In this document: positions 6,202 through 30,307 of the stretch, piece by piece
How the letters are laid out: each line of letters begins with the position of its first letter
How positions within the stretch are numbered: the first letter of the stretch is position 1
Assembly (NCBI RefSeq): GCF_000633635.1
Contig: NZ_AYPQ01000001.1
Location: forward strand, 530,820 to 594,819
Origin: Enterococcus crotali
Lineage (GTDB): Bacteria; Bacillota; Bacilli; Lactobacillales; Enterococcaceae
DNA: 64,000 bases
Direction: 5' to 3'
Made by a program: the position numbers and the translations under genes
The notes under the pieces: generated by a model
The model's database searches: none
Told to the model about the DNA's origin: nothing
Seen by the model: only the letters and a program-made list of their open reading frames with translations

Positions 6202-6990
6202 ATGGCAGTAATTTCTATGAAACAATTACTAGAAGCCGGCGTACACTTTGGACACCAAACTCGTCGCTGGAACCCAAAAATGAAGAAATACATCTTCACA
6301 GAAAGAAACGGAATCTACATCATTGACTTACAAAAAACAGTTAAATTAGTAGATGCTGCTTACGATTACATGAAAAATGTTGCTGAAGATGGCGGCGTTG
6401 CATTATTCGTAGGAACTAAAAAACAAGCACAAGAAGCGATTAAAGACGAAGCGATTCGTTCAGGTCAATACTTTGTTAATCACCGTTGGTTAGGTGGAAC
6501 TTTAACTAACTGGGATACTATCCAAAAACGTATCAAACGTTTGAAAGATATCAATAAAATGGAAGAAGACGGAACATTCGAAGTTCTTCCTAAAAAAGAA
6601 GTTGTTGGTTTAAACAAACAACGTGAACGTCTTGAAAAATTCTTAGGTGGTATCCAAGATATGCCTAGAATTCCAGATGTAATGTACATCGTTGATCCTC
6701 GTAAAGAACGTATCGCTGTTCAAGAAGCTCAAAAATTGAACATCCCAATCGTTGCGATGGTTGATACTAACTGTGATCCAGATGAAATCGATGTAGTAAT
6801 CCCATCAAATGATGATGCGATTCGTGCGGTTAAATTGATCACTGCTAAAATGGCTGACGCTTTCATCGAAGGAAACCAAGGTGAAGATCAAGCTGTAGAA
6901 GAAATCTTTGTTGAAGAAGCACCAGAAGCTGCAACTTCAATCGAAGAAATCGTTGATGTTGTTGAAGGCACAAACGATTCAGCAGAATAA
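6202..6990 (+). CDS. rpsB: 30S ribosomal protein S2
   Basis: 262 residues, full length. It starts with the S2 signature [20 protein letters not shown] and has [12 protein letters not shown], the central coiled-coil region and the second signature stretch [19 protein letters not shown]. An acidic C-terminal tail ([17 protein letters not shown]) is typical of enterococcal S2. S2 joins late in small-subunit assembly. The ribosome site TTGGAGG lies about ten bases upstream. It forms the classic rpsB-tsf pair, here separated by a terminator and two structured repeats, so tsf expression depends on read-through or on a promoter inside the gap. Confidence 0.98.
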
Positions 6991-7003
6991 TTTAAAATAA
7001 CGG

Positions 7004-7059
7004 AGCTGTCTCGAAGGCTAGGCGAAAAAAGCCTGATTCTCCTTTGAGATAGCTTTTTT
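7004..7059 (+). terminator. Terminator after rpsB
   Basis: AGCTGTCTCGAAGG (7004-7017) pairs with CCTTTGAGATAGCT (7041-7054), with an inner AGGC/GCCT stem and a run of six T's. Because tsf lacks an obvious strong promoter, it may be a partial terminator that sets the rpsB to tsf ratio. Confidence 0.8.
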
Positions 7060-7070
7060 AAAACGAATTT

Positions 7071-7192
7071 TAAAATTATCTAGCTTCGTGGGCTAGCTTC
7101 TCGGAAAAAAGATAAAATATACCTGTGACAAAAAGCGTCACAAATATATTTTCCTGTTTTTCAGTCGAAGCTGGACGAGCCCATTACGCTTT
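7071..7192 (+). repeat. Family A structured intergenic element, copy A1
   Basis: First of two tandem 122-base units in the rpsB-tsf gap. It folds as one long imperfect hairpin: GTGGGCT (7088-7094) with AGCCCAT (7178-7184), then AAAATATA with TATATTTT, and the tip GTGAC/GTCAC around AAAAAGC. Conserved unpaired or partly paired blocks are TCGGAAAAAAGATA and TTTTTCAGTC. Compared with the other copies the stems change by paired substitutions. Confidence 0.8.
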
Positions 7193-7314
7193 TAAAATTA
7201 TCTAGCTTCGTAGGCTAGCCTTTCGGAAAAAAGATAAAACGTGATTGTGGCAAAAAAGCACCACACTCAAGTTTTCCTATTTTTCAATCAAGGCAGAATG
7301 AGCCTACTACGCTT
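7193..7314 (+). repeat. Family A structured intergenic element, copy A2
   Basis: Second tandem unit; its right end (ACGCTTTTAAAA) runs directly into the tsf ribosome site TTAGGAGGA. Stems are GTAGGCT/AGCCTAC and tip TGTGG/CCACA, which differ from copy A1 but still pair. The shared block CGGAAAAAAGATAAAA is intact. Confidence 0.8.
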
Positions 7315-7337
7315 TTAAAACTTAGGAGGAACAAAAA

Positions 7338-8219
7338 ATGGCAGATATTTCAGCAAAATTAGTTAAAGAACTACGCGACATGACTGGTGTCGGTATGATG
7401 GACGCAAAAAGAGCGTTAGTAGAAGTAGAAGGTAATATGGATGCAGCTGTTGATTACCTACGTGAAAAAGGAATGGCTAAAGCCGCTAAGAAAAATGACC
7501 GTGTTGCAGCTGAAGGTTTAGCGAACGTTGCTTCAAATGGTAACTTTGCAGCAATCGTTGAAGTAAACTCAGAAACTGACTTCGTTTCTAAAAACGAAAT
7601 GTTCCAAGATTTAGTTAAAAAAATCGCAACTGAAATTGCTACTAATAAACCAGCAAACATGGAAGAAGCTTTAGCTCTTAAAACAGATAAAGGTACTTTA
7701 GAAACTGAACTGATTGAAGCGACAACTGTTATCGGTGAAAAAATCAGCTTCCGTCGTTTTGAATTAGTAGAAAAAGATGACAATGCTGCATTTGGTGCTT
7801 ATTTACACATGGGCGGACGCATTGCAGTATTAACTGTATTAGAAGGAACAACTGACGAAGAAGTTGCCAAAGACGTAGCAATGCACGTTGCTGCTATCAA
7901 CCCTCGTTATGTGAACGAATCACAAATTCCTCAAGAAGAATTAGAGCACGAAAAAGCAATTCTTTCTGAACAAGCATTAAACGAAGGAAAACCAGCAAAT
8001 ATCGTTGATAAAATGGTTGTTGGTCGTCTAAACAAATTTAAAGCTGAAATTTCATTAGTAGATCAACCATTCGTTAAAGATCCTGATATGACAGTTGAAA
8101 AATATGTTGCATCTAAAGGCGCAACAGTTAAATCATTCATCCGCTTTGAAGTTGGCGAAGGAATCGAAAAACGTGAAGATAACTTTGCAGACGAAGTAAT
8201 GAGCCAAATCAAAAAATAA
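7338..8219 (+). CDS. tsf: Elongation factor Ts
   Basis: 293 residues, the usual length. EF-Ts is the guanine-nucleotide exchange factor for EF-Tu. The first EF-Ts signature [18 protein letters not shown] lies at residues 12-29 in the UBA-like N-terminal domain, and the second, [15 protein letters not shown], at about 75-90; the dimerisation domain follows. The ribosome site TTAGGAGGA is seven bases from the ATG and abuts the end of repeat A2. Codon use is highly biased, as expected for a translation factor. Confidence 0.98.
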
Positions 8220-19787: not shown

Positions 19788-20050
19788 TTATCTAGCTGGA
19801 AAATACATTTGAATCAGAGTGCGGAAGTTTGGTTTACATTGTATTTCAGTAGGAAAAATAGTATACTTAACTGTGGCGAGGCACTTGGCAGAAATGTCTA
19901 AGGGCCTCTTTCTCATCAAGTTATCCAGCTAAGAGCTGGTGGGTTTAAATAGAGTAAGTTTTTAGGCAAATATTTTGAAAAAGAGTAAAAATAGGGGAGA
20001 ACATCGTTATCCTATTTTTACAGTCAAGGCAGAACGAGCCTGTTCCGCTT
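19788..20050 (+). repeat. Degenerate family A copies before polC
   Basis: The 581-base proS-polC gap has no gene. Two decayed units precede two full ones. The first begins TTATCTAGCTGG and includes a GAGGC...GCCTC hairpin with inner CTTGG/CTAAG. The second begins TTATCCAGCT, keeps a TAAAAATAGG/CCTATTTTTA stem (19986-20020) and ends with CAGTCAAGGCAGAACGAGCC and GTTCCGCTTTTA, matching full copies. Confidence 0.6.
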
Positions 20051-20170
20051 TTATCTATCTAGCTGCATGAGCTAGTTCTTCGGAAAAAAGATAAAAATTA
20101 AAAATGGCAAGAAACGCCACAGTTAATTTTTCCTATTTTTCAATCAGAACTAAACAAGCTCATTCCGCTT
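20051..20170 (+). repeat. Family A structured intergenic element, copy A3
   Basis: 120-base unit starting TTATCTATCTAGCTGCAT. Stems ATGAGCT/AGCTCAT, AAAAATTA/TTAATTTTT-type middle stem, and tip TGGC/GCCA. The conserved block TTCGGAAAAAAGATAAAA is present. Confidence 0.8.
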
Positions 20171-20292
20171 TTATCTATCTAGCTATACAGGCTAGCCTTT
20201 TGGAAAAAAGATAAAATATAAATGAGACAAAAAGCGTCTCAGTGATATTTTCCTATTTTTCAGTCAAGGCAGAACGAGCCTGTTCCGCTTTT
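20171..20292 (+). repeat. Family A structured intergenic element, copy A4
   Basis: Tandem to A3 and ends GTTCCGCTTTTAAAATA immediately before the polC ribosome site AAGGAGG. Stems ACAGGCT/AGCCTGT, AAAATAT/ATATTTT and tip GAGAC/GTCTC around AAAAAGC. Confidence 0.8.
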
Positions 20293-20312
20293 AAAATAAG
20301 GAGGTTCATTTA

Positions 20313-23300
20313 GTGGCAGACAAGGCACAAGAGTTATTTGCAAAGTTGGTTGATCAAATTCAATTAAATGAACAAGAGCGGCAGCATCCGCTCATTCAAC
20401 AAGGAAGAATTGACAAAGTTGTCGTTCATCAACAAAGCCGCTTATGGGAATTCCATTTAGGATTCACTGAAATATTACCGGTAATGCTGTATCAATCGTT
20501 TATGCAGCAACTGGAACTTGCTTTTCAGCAAATTGCAGGAGTATCTGTGAAAATTTCAGCTGATAAAAATGATTTTACAGAGGAACAATTGACGGATTAT
20601 TGGCAACTAGCATTATTGAACAGTCAATGTGATACGCCTTTAGTTCAGCGTGTAATCAAAACACAAACCCCGGTCATCGAAGATAAAAAAATTATTTTAC
20701 CCGTTGATAATGACGCTGTTATTCCTTATTTAAAACAACAATATTTACCGATCATTGAAGAGCTTTATAGCAACTATGGGTTTCAAAAATTTCATATCGA
20801 ACCTAAAATGGATGAGCAGCAAGCAAAACGCGTGTTAGCATTATTTGAAGAACGCAAGCAAGAACAAGATGCTGCATTCCAACAACAAGCAGCTGAATCG
20901 CTTATTAAGCATGAACAAAAGAAGAAACAACAACAGCAGCAAGGTCCAGCACTTGAAGGACCGATTCGTCTTGGTCGAAATATACCAAACGATGAACCGA
21001 TCATCCGATGGGCAATATCTTAGAAGAAGAGCGTCGGGTAACGATCGAAGGTTTTGTTTTTGATGTAGAAGTGCGGGAATTACGTTCTAAACGGAAAATC
21101 TTGATCTTAAAAATTACCGACTATACATCATCATTCATCGTTAAGAAATTCTCGAATGGTGAAAAAGATGAACAAATTTTTGATGCGATTCAAAAACATA
21201 GCTGGGTTCGGGTTCGCGGAAGTATTCAAGAAGATACTTTTATGCGAGATCTAGTGATGAACTGTCAAGATTTGATGGAAGTCAAACATGCGCCGCGTAA
21301 AGACTATGCACCAGAAGGCGATAAACGTGTGGAACTTCATTTACACAGCAATATGAGTACAATGGATGCAACAAACAATGTTGCTGATTACGTCGCTCAA
21401 GCAGGTAAATGGGGACACAAAGCCATTGCAATCACCGATCATGGTGGAGCACAAGGCTTTCCAGATGCTCACAGTGCAGGGAAAAAAGCTGGCGTTAAAA
21501 TTTTGTATGGTGTTGAAGCTAATGTTGTAGATGATGGTGTGCCAATCGCTTATAATGAAGCGCACATTGAATTAAGTGATGCAACCTATGTCGTGTTTGA
21601 CGTGGAAACAACTGGGTTATCTGCTGTCTATGATACGATTATTGAGCTTGCAGCAGTTAAAATGCATAAAGGAAATATCATCGATACATTTGAACAATTT
21701 ATCGATCCAGGACACCCATTATCTCAAACCACAATCAATTTAACTGGGATCACAGATGAAATGGTACGTGGTTCAAAATCAGAAGAAGAAGTTCTGCGTT
21801 TGTTTAGAGAATTTTCAAAAGATACGATTCTAGTGGCTCACAATGCCTCATTTGATATGGGTTTCTTAAACACCAGTTATGGCAAATATGATATCCCAGA
21901 AGCTGAAAATCCAGTTATCGATACCTTGGAATTATCTCGTTATTTAAATCCGACATTTAAAAGTCATCGCTTGAATACATTATCTAAAAAATTCGGTGTC
22001 AATCTAGAACAACATCACCGGGCGATTTACGATTCCGAATCAACTGGTCATTTATGTTGGATCTTTTTGAAAGATGCTAAAGAAAACCATAATATGAATT
22101 ATCATGACGAATTGAATATGCACATTGGAGAAGGGGATTCTTATAAACGGGCCAGACCATTTCATGCAACGATTTTGGCAACAACTCAAGCTGGCTTGAA
22201 AAATCTCTTTAAATTGATTTCGATGTCCAATATCAATTATTTTTTCAGAATTCCACGAATTCCTCGCTCTCAGCTGAGTAAATTACGGGAAGGCTTGATC
22301 ATCGGTTCAGCATGTTCCAATGGTGAAATCTTTGAAGCAATGATGCAAAAAGGGGTAGAAGAAGCCAAAAACCGAGCTAAATTCTATGATTATATCGAAG
22401 TCATGCCAAAAGCTGTCTATGCGCCATTGTTAGAACAAGAATTAGTGAAAAGTGAAGCTGATTTAGAAGAAATCATTACAAACTTGGTGAAAATTGGAGA
22501 TGAATTAGAGAAGCCAGTTGTTGCAACTGGAAATGTTCATTATTTAAATGAAGAAGATAGTATTTATCGAAAAATTTTAGTAGGTTCAATGGGAGGGGCT
22601 AATCCATTGAATCGTCATAGCTTACCTGCTGTTCATTTTAGAACAACAGATGAAATGCTGACAGCATTCCAATTTTTAGGCGAAGAGACTGCCCATCGAA
22701 TCGTTGTAGAAAATCCTAATGCAATTGCGGATATGTGTGATGAGATCACCCCGGTTAAAGATGATTTATATACACCAAAAATTCCAGGTTCAGAAGATGA
22801 GATCAGAAACTTAAGTTATACTCGTGCAAAAGAGCTTTATGGCGATCCATTACCTGATATTGTTGAAAAACGATTAAAAAAAGAATTAGATAGTATTATT
22901 GGAAATGGGTTTTCGGTTATCTATTTGATTTCACAAAAATTAGTGCATAAAAGTATGGAAGATGGCTATCTAGTTGGTTCCCGTGGATCTGTGGGTTCTA
23001 GTTTTGTAGCAACGATGACAGGGATTACAGAGGTCAATCCTTTGGCACCTCATTATCATTGTACCAACTGTAAGCATTCTGAATTTTTTGAAGACGGATC
23101 ATATGGTTCTGGTTTTGATATGCCGGAGAAAAATTGTCCAAATTGCGGGCAACGATTGTTTAAAGATGGTCATGATATTCCGTTTGAAACCTTTTTAGGG
23201 TTCCATGGGGATAAAGTACCCGATATCGATTTGAACTTCTCAGGAGATTATCAAGCTGAAGCGCACAACTATACAAAGGTATTGTTTGGTGAGGAATATG

Positions 23301-24664
23301 TGTATCGTGCTGGAACGATCGGTACAGTTGCAGACAAGACCGCTTACGGATTTGTGAAAGGCTATGAGCGAGACCATAATCTTCATTTTAGAGGAGCTGA
23401 AGTGGATCGTTTGGCCAAAGGATCCACCGGTGTGAAACGAACGACTGGACAGCATCCAGGGGGGATCATCGTTATCCCTGATTATATGGATGTTTATGAT
23501 TTTACACCAATTCAATATCCTGCCGACGATCAAAATTCTGAATGGAAAACGACTCACTTTGATTTCCATTCAATTCATGATAATATTTTGAAACTCGATA
23601 TTCTAGGACATGATGATCCGACTGTTATTCGAATGTTGCAAGACTTATCAGGAATCGATCCTAAAACAATTCCGACAGATGATCCGGAAATGATGCGGAT
23701 TTTTGCTGGACCAGAAGTCCTTGGCGTGACACCTGAGCAAATTTATTCTAAAACAGGTACTCTGGGAATCCCAGAGTTTGGTACTCGTTTTGTACGGGGC
23801 ATGTTGGAAGAGACACATCCGTCAACTTTTGCTGAGTTACTACAGATATCTGGATTATCTCATGGTACCGATGTTTGGTTAGGAAATGCGGAAGAATTGA
23901 TTCGACGTGGTGAAGCAACGCTAGCGGAAGTTATTGGTTGTCGGGATGATATCATGGTTTATTTGATTCATGCAGGATTAGATAGTGGTATGGCCTTTAA
24001 AATCATGGAGACCGTACGTAAAGGGCTCTGGAATAAAATTCCTGATGAATTAAGAGAAGAATACTTGACTGCGATGAAAGAAAATAATGTCCCAGATTGG
24101 TATATTGATTCTTGTTCGAAAATCAAGTATATGTTCCCGAAAGCCCATGCGGCAGCCTACGTGTTGATGGCATTGCGTGTTGCGTACTTCAAAGTATACT
24201 TTCCAATTTTATACTATTGTGCCTATTTCTCTGTTCGGGCAGACGATTTTGATTTAGTCGCGATGTCACAAGGGAAAGAAGCGGTGAAGGCCCGAATGAA
24301 AGAGATTCAAGATAAAGGGCTGGAAGCCTCTACAAAAGAAAAAAATCTATTGACCGTTTTAGAACTTGCTAACGAGATGATTGAGCGTGGCTTTAAATTC
24401 GGTATGATCGATTTGTATAAATCTGATGCTGAAAATTTTGTGATCGATGGTGATACACTGATTGCACCGTTTAGAGCCGTTCCAAGTTTGGGACTAAACG
24501 TAGCGAAATCGATTGTAGAAGCAAGAGAGGAACCATTCTTATCAAAAGAAGATCTTGCGAGTCGAGGGAAAGTATCAAAAACGTTGATCGAGTATATGAC
24601 TGAAAATGGTGTATTGAAAGATTTGCCGGATGAAAATCAATTATCATTATTTGATATGTTATAA
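20313..24664 (+). pseudogene. polC: DNA polymerase III alpha subunit PolC, frameshifted
   Basis: GTG start at 20313 after AAGGAGG. The first frame (to 21023) is the N-terminal domain and Q-rich linker. The second (in frame from 21008 to 24664) holds the OB fold ([19 protein letters not shown]), PHP domain ([16 protein letters not shown]), proofreading exonuclease ([31 protein letters not shown]), a CTNC...CPNC zinc site and the family C polymerase core ([13 protein letters not shown]). Adding one C at 21005-21006 gives [15 protein letters not shown], so one base seems missing. PolC is the main replicative polymerase and essential in low-GC Gram-positives, hence a sequence error is more likely than real loss. 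Confidence 0.93.
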
Positions 24665-24682
24665 AAATAGACGCTTTTGCTT

Positions 24683-24742
24683 CCACCGTTTATTCGGATT
24701 TTTTGAGGAGGGAATGTGACTCGTAGAGTTATGTCCATCCTC
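24683..24742 (+). terminator. Family B terminator element after polC (B1)
   Basis: The conserved block CCACCGTTTATTCGGATT (24683-24700) is followed by a hairpin GAGGAGGGA (24705-24713) with TCCATCCTC (24734-24742). The loop contains GACTCGTAGAGTTATG, shared with copy B2 though the stem sequence differs. Confidence 0.65.
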
Positions 24743-29754: not shown

Positions 29755-29876
29755 TTATCCAGCTTTACAGGCTAACCTTTTTAGGCAAAAGATGAACATG
29801 GAGTGAGACAAAAGATGCCTCAATCAATTACCATTATTTTTCTGTCAAGGCTAGTGGGCCTGTTTAGCTTTAATAA
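29755..29876 (+). repeat. Family A structured element, diverged copy A5
   Basis: Starts TTATCCAGCTTTACAGGCTA and ends TTTAGCTTTAATAAGTAGGAGG at the trxA ribosome site. Outer stem ACAGGC/GCCTGT and tip TGAG/CTCA pair; the middle is diverged and GGCAAAAGATGAA replaces GGAAAAAAGATAAA. Confidence 0.65.
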
Positions 29877-29892
29877 GTAGGAGGGCTATAAA

Positions 29893-30207: not shown

Positions 30208-30230
30208 TATTAAACGCAAAAGGGTGCTTT

Positions 30231-30307
30231 TGCTCCCGTCGTTTATTTGAATGTCAAGTGACTGGGTTGTAACTCGTAGAGTTATGTCCCAGTCACTTGC
30301 TTTTTTA
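30231..30307 (+). terminator. Family B terminator element after trxA (B2)
   Basis: Block GCTCCCGTCGTTTATTTGAA (30232-30251) then a perfect 12-bp stem CAAGTGACTGGG/CCCAGTCACTTG (30255-30266, 30288-30299) and a T-run. The loop has AACTCGTAGAGTTATGTC, as in B1. Confidence 0.85.

Follow-up and report, generated by a model that had tools for sequence, protein, structure and literature searches.

Introduction

Among the repeats described from enterococci, Efa-1 of Enterococcus faecalis is, according to the accessible portion of its description, an intergenic stem-loop repeat of 163 nt that occurs in 65 copies and contains two stem-loops (Cozzuto et al. 2008, PMC2267715). "EFAR elements in Enterococci" are named among the miniature inverted-repeat transposable elements (MITEs) in the consulted part of PMC3733652, which cites De Gregorio et al. 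2009 (FEMS Microbiol Lett 292:7–12) and gives a length of 20–40 bp for repetitive extragenic palindromic sequences (REPs). In pneumococci, the repeats BOX, RUP, and SPRITE are over-represented between convergently transcribed genes, as stated in the excerpted text of PMC3049150. A common view of small bacterial repeats is that they are intergenic clutter which the genome tolerates. Here we analyze a repeat unit of Enterococcus crotali found in a stretch of 64,000 nt of contig NZ_AYPQ01000001.1 (assembly GCF_000633635.1), hereafter the window, in which a tandem pair of units occupies the gap between rpsB and tsf, directly in front of the tsf Shine–Dalgarno sequence (SD). We regard the unit as a dispersed, palindromic, MITE-like enterococcal repeat of which the main subtype docks on the 5′ side of strong SDs and forms tandem copies, a reading to which we assign a probability of roughly 0.6.

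Arrays in the Window, Copy Number, and Range

The units of the tsf pair measure about 120 nt and follow each other with a period of 122 nt (Table 1), just as a preliminary description of this DNA had stated. The gap is arranged in the following order: a hairpin behind rpsB is succeeded by unit 1, unit 2, the SD, and the start codon of tsf at position 7338. Two further arrays lie in the window, one before polC, made up of two full units and a partial one, and one before trxA, consisting of a single unit. Judged by their stem letters, the five copies A1–A5 on which the preliminary description was based are the two tsf units, the two full polC units, and the trxA unit, to which the partial polC unit has now been added. 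According to Pfam, the genes behind the three arrays encode EF-Ts, a protein with PolC N-terminal domains, and thioredoxin, respectively.

For genome searches, a covariance model of the unit, R1, was used. In the genome of E. crotali itself, the surroundings of R1 and BLAST matches were scored by nhmmer (at least 25 bits), which yielded 138 units in 84 arrays: 46 single, 26 double, 10 triple, one of four units, and one of six. R1 alone gave 140 own-genome matches among 150 candidates scored. The search of enterococcal genomes with a covariance model that had been proposed at the outset returned matches in all 22 genus genomes, from 3 to at least 150 per genome. A second survey covered 34 genomes reached via named tsf loci, a choice of 34 from 80 such loci; 22 of these genomes contain an R1 match (E 0.001). 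Counts from 76 to at least 107 were obtained for E. quebecensis, E. ureilyticus, E. sp. DIV0212c, E. plantarum, E. moraviensis, E. ureasiticus, E. caccae, and E. termitis; these are followed by sp. PF1-24 (61), sp. BWR-S5 (47), canintestini (42), larvae (39), sp. 5H (28), dispar (27), sp. BWB1-3 (11), and sp. 669A (8), and finally by avium (4), rivorum (3), raffinosus and columbae (2 each), as well as malodoratus and a genome titled E. faecalis 13-SD-W-01 (1 each). At the same E-value nothing was found in the other 12 of the 34 genomes, including E. lactis, E. casseliflavus, E. mundtii, E. cecorum, Vagococcus fluvialis, and Tetragenococcus muriaticus. Family-wide, with stricter filters and a threshold of E 1e-8, matches were obtained in 39 of 105 genomes, which represent 5 of the 17 genera.

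Carriage of the tsf array by a plasmid or phage was considered and rejected, as a comparison with 72,556 plasmid and 50,697 phage records matched nothing at E 0.001. As a separate observation, the unit core is matched exactly at three positions of the viral contig IMGVR_UViG_2579778621_000001 (L260). Two contigs of the E. crotali assembly, C5 at its start (L103, 1–220) and C7 at its end (L111, 2483–2668), break within near-identical units and for this reason may be neighbors.

Anchoring of the Arrays to Shine–Dalgarno Sequences

In 67 of the 84 own-genome arrays an SD begins no more than 14 nt past the 3′ end of the unit, and in 64 of them it begins at +4 to +6: The offset is 5 in 43 arrays, 4 in 16, and 6 in 5, with 2, 8, and 9 occurring once each. 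The corresponding chance rates, taken from intergenic positions of the window, are 1.7% (within 14 nt) and 0.49% (+4 to +6). No SD was found outward of the opposite array end in any of the 84 cases; the arrays have a single orientation. The 17 arrays without an SD by our pattern comprise one that is truncated by a contig end and six (L091, L092, L103, L139, L145, and L151) with an SD-like stretch that lies slightly further away, past a broken copy, or outside the pattern. The same geometry recurs in two sister species, where arrays were drawn from high-scoring matches and 21 of 22 are anchored at +4 to +6; the two genomes (G006 and G013) are close sisters by a tree of a polC part, and their 22 arrays and 20 SD-linked genes are accordingly not independent.

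The SDs concerned are strong ones. When open reading frames (ORFs) of at least 150 codons in the retrieved stretches are compared and the start with the best SD is taken in both groups, a perfect AGGAGG precedes 35 of the 43 array genes that this length leaves and 37 of 209 other genes, and a T stands two bases upstream of it in 84% and 21%, respectively. The element may prefer such sites, or part of the sequence may come with it. A total of 66 genes are linked to SD-anchored arrays, ten of which were identified by Pfam: apart from the three genes of the window these are dapA (DHDPS), dnaA, codY, serS, and genes for an HslV-like protease subunit, a ClpC-like ATPase, and a FabD-like acyltransferase.

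In the E. crotali genome, anchoring goes together with the last base of the array. Units of the main subtype end in A, mostly as GCTTTTA, and 67 of the 73 own-genome arrays with such a last unit are located at an SD, compared with 0 of 10 with another last base (P 3.3e-9). Related units that terminate in another base sit elsewhere, so the end of the element and its target may be linked. Within arrays, the spacers at unit junctions measure 0–5 nt in 50 of 54 cases and are frequently alike within one array. Additionally, a linker module with a 56-nt core, longer in some copies, occurs at 8 places, among them L109 2617–2672 and 2813–2868; it lies directly 5′ of a unit in 7 of these. In 3 places the module itself follows a unit, and this unit then ends in TTG. 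This suggests that linker module and units form a modular, composite element.

Filled, Empty, and Decayed Orthologous Sites

The trxA site could be read in 9 of the 22 related genomes, of which 2 are filled, 1 is internally deleted, and 6 are empty with the SD intact. At polC, 17 of 22 gaps were read: 8 contain units of at least 25 bits, 3 contain weak remnants, and 6 contain none. At dapA, arrays of 1–4 units that end 18–23 nt before the start codon are present in 16 of 22 genomes; in 5 of the 6 genomes without units, a putative stop codon of the upstream gene is found about 10 nt or less from the dapA SD. For the gene next to dapA, which was read in 20 of 22 genomes, 7 show model matches upstream, one of them weak (21.9 bits) and one, in G013, whose nearest unit lies 97 nt away from the start. 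Among 80 named tsf loci, 7 of the nearest carry 1–4 full units and one carries a fragment; a remnant was seen by eye at the tsf locus L009. The number of full units at tsf ranges from 0 to 4 among the nearest named species. We do not draw a dated gain or loss from the polC-part tree, because 9 of its 19 inner branches are open and its lengths are saturated.

Hairpin Fold, Covariation, and Alternative Explanations

Each of the tsf units folds into one long hairpin, as had been proposed, with minimum free energies of −37.1 and −32.1 kcal/mol, and the folds of the full tsf and polC units surpass all of 200 dinucleotide shuffles. We then aligned 75 near-complete own-genome units of the first set retrieved, excluding partial and low-scoring ones, for which RNAalifold returned 23 pairs, 15 of them changed on both sides. 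In this set 95.2% of the cells are paired, and 278 cells show a double change, against 97.9 after shuffling and 3–29 when the partner is slid. A second set of 48 units from the two sister species gave double changes at 17 of 23 pairs, 95.8% paired cells, and 209 double-change cells (70.2 shuffled, 10–39 slid), in an alignment that was fitted to the covariance model, which favors structure, and with units from high-scoring matches in two genomes, which may favor paired ones. The covariation first noticed in five copies is consequently borne out in larger alignments. As the units are mostly paralogues that were aligned together, these cells are not independent events, and the common structure expected of a cis-regulatory RNA is seen here in counts on mostly paralogous units. 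Part of the constraint acts on the sequence, because letters of the inner arm are conserved too. The segment CGGAAAAAAGATA, reported as conserved, is retained for the most part, although one A is frequently G. A G-U pair in the internal loop is invariant in both sets (75/75 and 48/48) and was omitted from the following wobble counts.

Selection at the level of the mRNA predicts that G-U is tolerated well above A-C, an expectation for which no control RNA was run here. This signature was looked for in both sets of units and was not found: The first contains 22 G-U and 53 A-C cells, 11 of the latter at a single pair (cluster bootstrap P(GU≥AC) 0.006), the second 23 G-U and 21 A-C cells (bootstrap 0.97). 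Taken together, the wobble counts do not prefer the mRNA strand. The earlier claim of a selected RNA structure, as opposed to a mere DNA repeat, is therefore only partly supported, since the pairing is kept yet G-U is no commoner than A-C. In its original wording the claim is not supported; the unit is a dispersed DNA repeat.

These data bear on three other explanations. According to the first, the arrays are cis-acting RNA regulators, that is, selected leader arrays which set translation or mRNA stability and whose position at the SD reflects their function. The strong covariation in both sets, the fixed geometry and orientation relative to the SD, the retention before orthologous genes, and the kind of genes that follow the arrays, at least among the ten looked up of 66, speak for this explanation. 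However, no common pathway is obvious among these ten, at polC, trxA, and the neighboring gene of dapA related genomes have decayed arrays or none, the unit number at tsf varies among the nearest species, A-C is not exceeded by G-U, and the arrays of distant genomes lie mostly away from an SD. On balance we consider a regulatory RNA rather unlikely. The second explanation attributes the covariation to templating at the DNA level, by hairpin-mediated template switching or by conversion between copies, without any selection for structure. It would account for the small number of wobble and mismatch states beside the many double changes, and at L085 the two arms of units match different neighbors by eye, which suggests recombination between units; but it leaves both the placement next to the SD and the invariant G-U pair unexplained, and as a full account we find it improbable. 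The third, according to which the core of A-tract, hairpin, and T-tract stops transcription on either strand as a terminator or attenuator, for example of antisense transcripts from the downstream gene, is the least credible: Five terminator-like predictions fall into 6960–7360 against 0.4 in shuffles, four of them inside units (three on the minus and one on the plus strand), and one of the minus-strand predictions has a run of six T, but the stems beside the T-tracts are AT-rich with 3 G-C pairs each, sense-strand termination ahead of tsf, polC, or dapA, repeated up to four times, would presumably carry a cost, and the dapA array sits between two closely spaced genes.

A Proposed Mobile Repeat at the Ribosome Binding Site

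We return to the reading of the unit as a MITE-like repeat. It is short, palindromic, and present in many copies, as is characteristic of MITEs, and its high copy number, its patchy presence at orthologous sites, its remnants, and its varying unit number are best fitted by one of the guesses of the preliminary description, namely a mobile palindromic element. The main subtype is placed in the 5′ leader or intergenic gap directly before a strong SD and in one orientation. Insertion would be site-specific and would be performed beside AGGAGG by a putative enzyme such that the SD stays usable. Units may then be gained and lost by tandem duplication and recombination, and the hairpin may be kept up either because mobility requires it or because it is renewed by templating at the DNA level. 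In the transcript, the units would form leader hairpins whose base, estimated from the SD offsets, lies about 20–26 nt before the start codon. Given the size of the ribosome footprint, this is roughly outside the region covered by the initiating ribosome, and such hairpins could alter mRNA stability.

A more specific version of this reading is tentative, and we hold it at somewhat less than even odds: The A-ending subtype may be a site-specific mobile element that targets the SD itself and installs expandable leader hairpins without breaking the gene. In this version, which we put forward with the same reserve, the element would dock with its hairpin base about ten bases from AGGAGG, always in one orientation, and in dozens of leaders, such as those of tsf, polC, dapA, and dnaA.

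Several observations weigh against the mobile repeat or its targeting of the SD. A Y1 transposase (Y1_Tnp, PF01797), the only transposase family searched for, has no match in the E. crotali genome, while 5 of 14 control genomes were positive; mobilization by a Y1 or REP-associated (RAYT) transposase of the same genome was accordingly rejected. There is no clear target-site duplication either: Of the 84 arrays 54 have complete ends, and after exclusion of 14 whose 5′ flanks are remnants the test comprised 40 arrays and gave a mean shared flank of 3.65 compared with 3.39 in permutations (P 0.022). In six distant genomes, just 2 of 20 arrays, again from high-scoring matches, are located at an SD. 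Both of these end in TTTTA and precede a ParA-like gene (checked by Pfam for one); the arrays away from an SD are intergenic, and for one of them (L220) no ORF was called upstream within the available sequence. When sorted by their last base, 5 of the distant arrays end in A and 15 in C or T, and none of the 15 is at an SD; 3 of the 5 A-ending arrays are also away from one, two of them despite ending in TTTTA, for which reason we slightly lowered our estimate for targeting of the SD. Occupancy is, moreover, fairly conserved, with 11 of the 20 SD-linked genes of G006 and G013 matching SD-linked genes of E. crotali (9 distinct ones); together with the 16 of 22 genomes filled at dapA, this retention would also be explained by a selected function. 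The A-C excess of the first set of units was not repeated in the second. Finally, AAATTAGGAGG may be either the target or part of the element. The presence of the same SD in the six element-free trxA sites argues that the element prefers sites of this kind, whereas the filled dapA sites mostly share AATTAGGAGG, which is absent from the empty ones and leaves room for an element that brings sequence with it.

A repeat that is held at the SD in a single orientation, for the most part to within one or two bases, would point either to insertion machinery that recognizes a translation signal at the DNA level or to a genus-wide rebuilding of leaders, including those of core genes. These two possibilities can be tested now, because orthologous sites are available in filled, empty, decayed, and expanded form across the 22 related genomes.

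Features of the Window

The coordinates of the units and SDs in the window are compiled in Table 1.

Table 1. Repeat units of the three window arrays and the Shine–Dalgarno sequences behind them
Feature	Position	Strand	Evidence
Unit 1 of the tsf array	7077–7194	+	nhmmer 108.8 bits; fold z −4.74
Unit 2 of the tsf array	7199–7317	+	nhmmer 106.3 bits; fold z −3.86
tsf SD, AGGAGG	7324–7329	+	Read in sequence; 6 nt separate SD from unit end
Partial unit of the polC array	19964–20053	+	nhmmer 37.2 bits
Full unit of the polC array	20056–20173	+	nhmmer 90.8 bits; fold z −5.08
Last unit of the polC array	20176–20293	+	nhmmer 111.7 bits; fold z −4.50
polC SD, AGGAGG	20299–20304	+	Read in sequence; offset 5
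Lone trxA unit, TGnTATAAT promoter-like box on one side, SD on the other	29756–29873	+	nhmmer 65.3 bits; filled and empty sites aligned
trxA SD, AGGAGG	29879–29884	+	Offset 5; also in empty sites of relatives

The hairpin behind rpsB is terminator-like and spans positions 6999–7058 (GGAGCTGTCTC...GAGATAGCTTTTTT). It recurs in most of the Enterococcus rpsB–tsf gaps compared, and because repeat-free gaps are among them it looks older than the repeat. The gene at 20313 was first read as rnc and the ORF behind it as smc, which is ruled out by the PolC N-terminal domains. In the window, polC (20313–24664) is split over two frames; as both parts are in a single frame in 21 of 21 relatives, the split probably reflects a sequencing or assembly error.

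Upstream of the polC array, between an ORF resembling prolyl-tRNA synthetase (Pfam) and polC, a nearly invariant stretch at 19854–19920 comprises a TATACT box followed by GGCGAGGCACTTGGCAG...GGGCCTCTTTCTT. Its core GGCACTTGGCAG is kept in 16 of 17 proS–polC gaps, the window counted, and the remainder diverges. The stretch forms a hairpin with a T-rich tail and a fold z of just −1.5, an Rfam search of it gave nothing at threshold, and it may represent a leader or small RNA that has no name so far. A second repeat is present in two copies at 24673–24736 and 30226–30289, which are 75% alike and end in ACTCGTAGAGTTATGTCC; a similar stretch occurs in the proS–polC gap of locus L159.

Comparison with Known Repeat Families

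An Rfam search of the 64-kb window returned no match at threshold. Six hits at the tsf array were all below the gathering threshold and chance-like, and a match to a curated Rfam family or riboswitch was rejected on this basis. While this agrees with the initial impression of an unknown family, enterococcal palindromic repeats, EFAR and Efa-1, had already been published. No report of an SD-anchored repeat was found in the literature searched, most subscription papers lying outside the reach of the search, and the terms EFAR, enterococc, Shine-Dalgarno, and ribosome binding are absent from the MITE review PMC10969869.

By description alone, and as far as the accessible portions of the sources go, the unit resembles EFAR and Efa-1 in being high-copy, intergenic, palindromic, and enterococcal, and it is probably their kin. 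On the same descriptive basis it differs from Efa-1, with 118–122 nt and one long stem-loop in place of 163 nt and two adjacent stem-loops. The single weak match in the genome titled E. faecalis 13-SD-W-01 (L029; E 1.2e-6) speaks against this kinship if the label is right; the label is doubted because the EF-Ts of this genome is just 83% identical to that of E. crotali. With REPs and the bacterial interspersed mosaic elements (BIMEs) the unit shares the property of a palindromic repeat thought to be mobile. In contrast to their 20–40 bp, as given in the consulted part of the literature, and their REP-associated Y1 transposase, E. crotali has a unit of 118–122 nt and no Y1 transposase. BOX, RUP, and SPRITE are, like the unit, short folded repeats of Gram-positive bacteria that occur in many copies and are largely restricted to a lineage (PMC3049150, in the text available from it). 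Unlike these pneumococcal repeats with their preference for the space between convergent genes, however, the enterococcal unit is mostly found at SDs and in one orientation.
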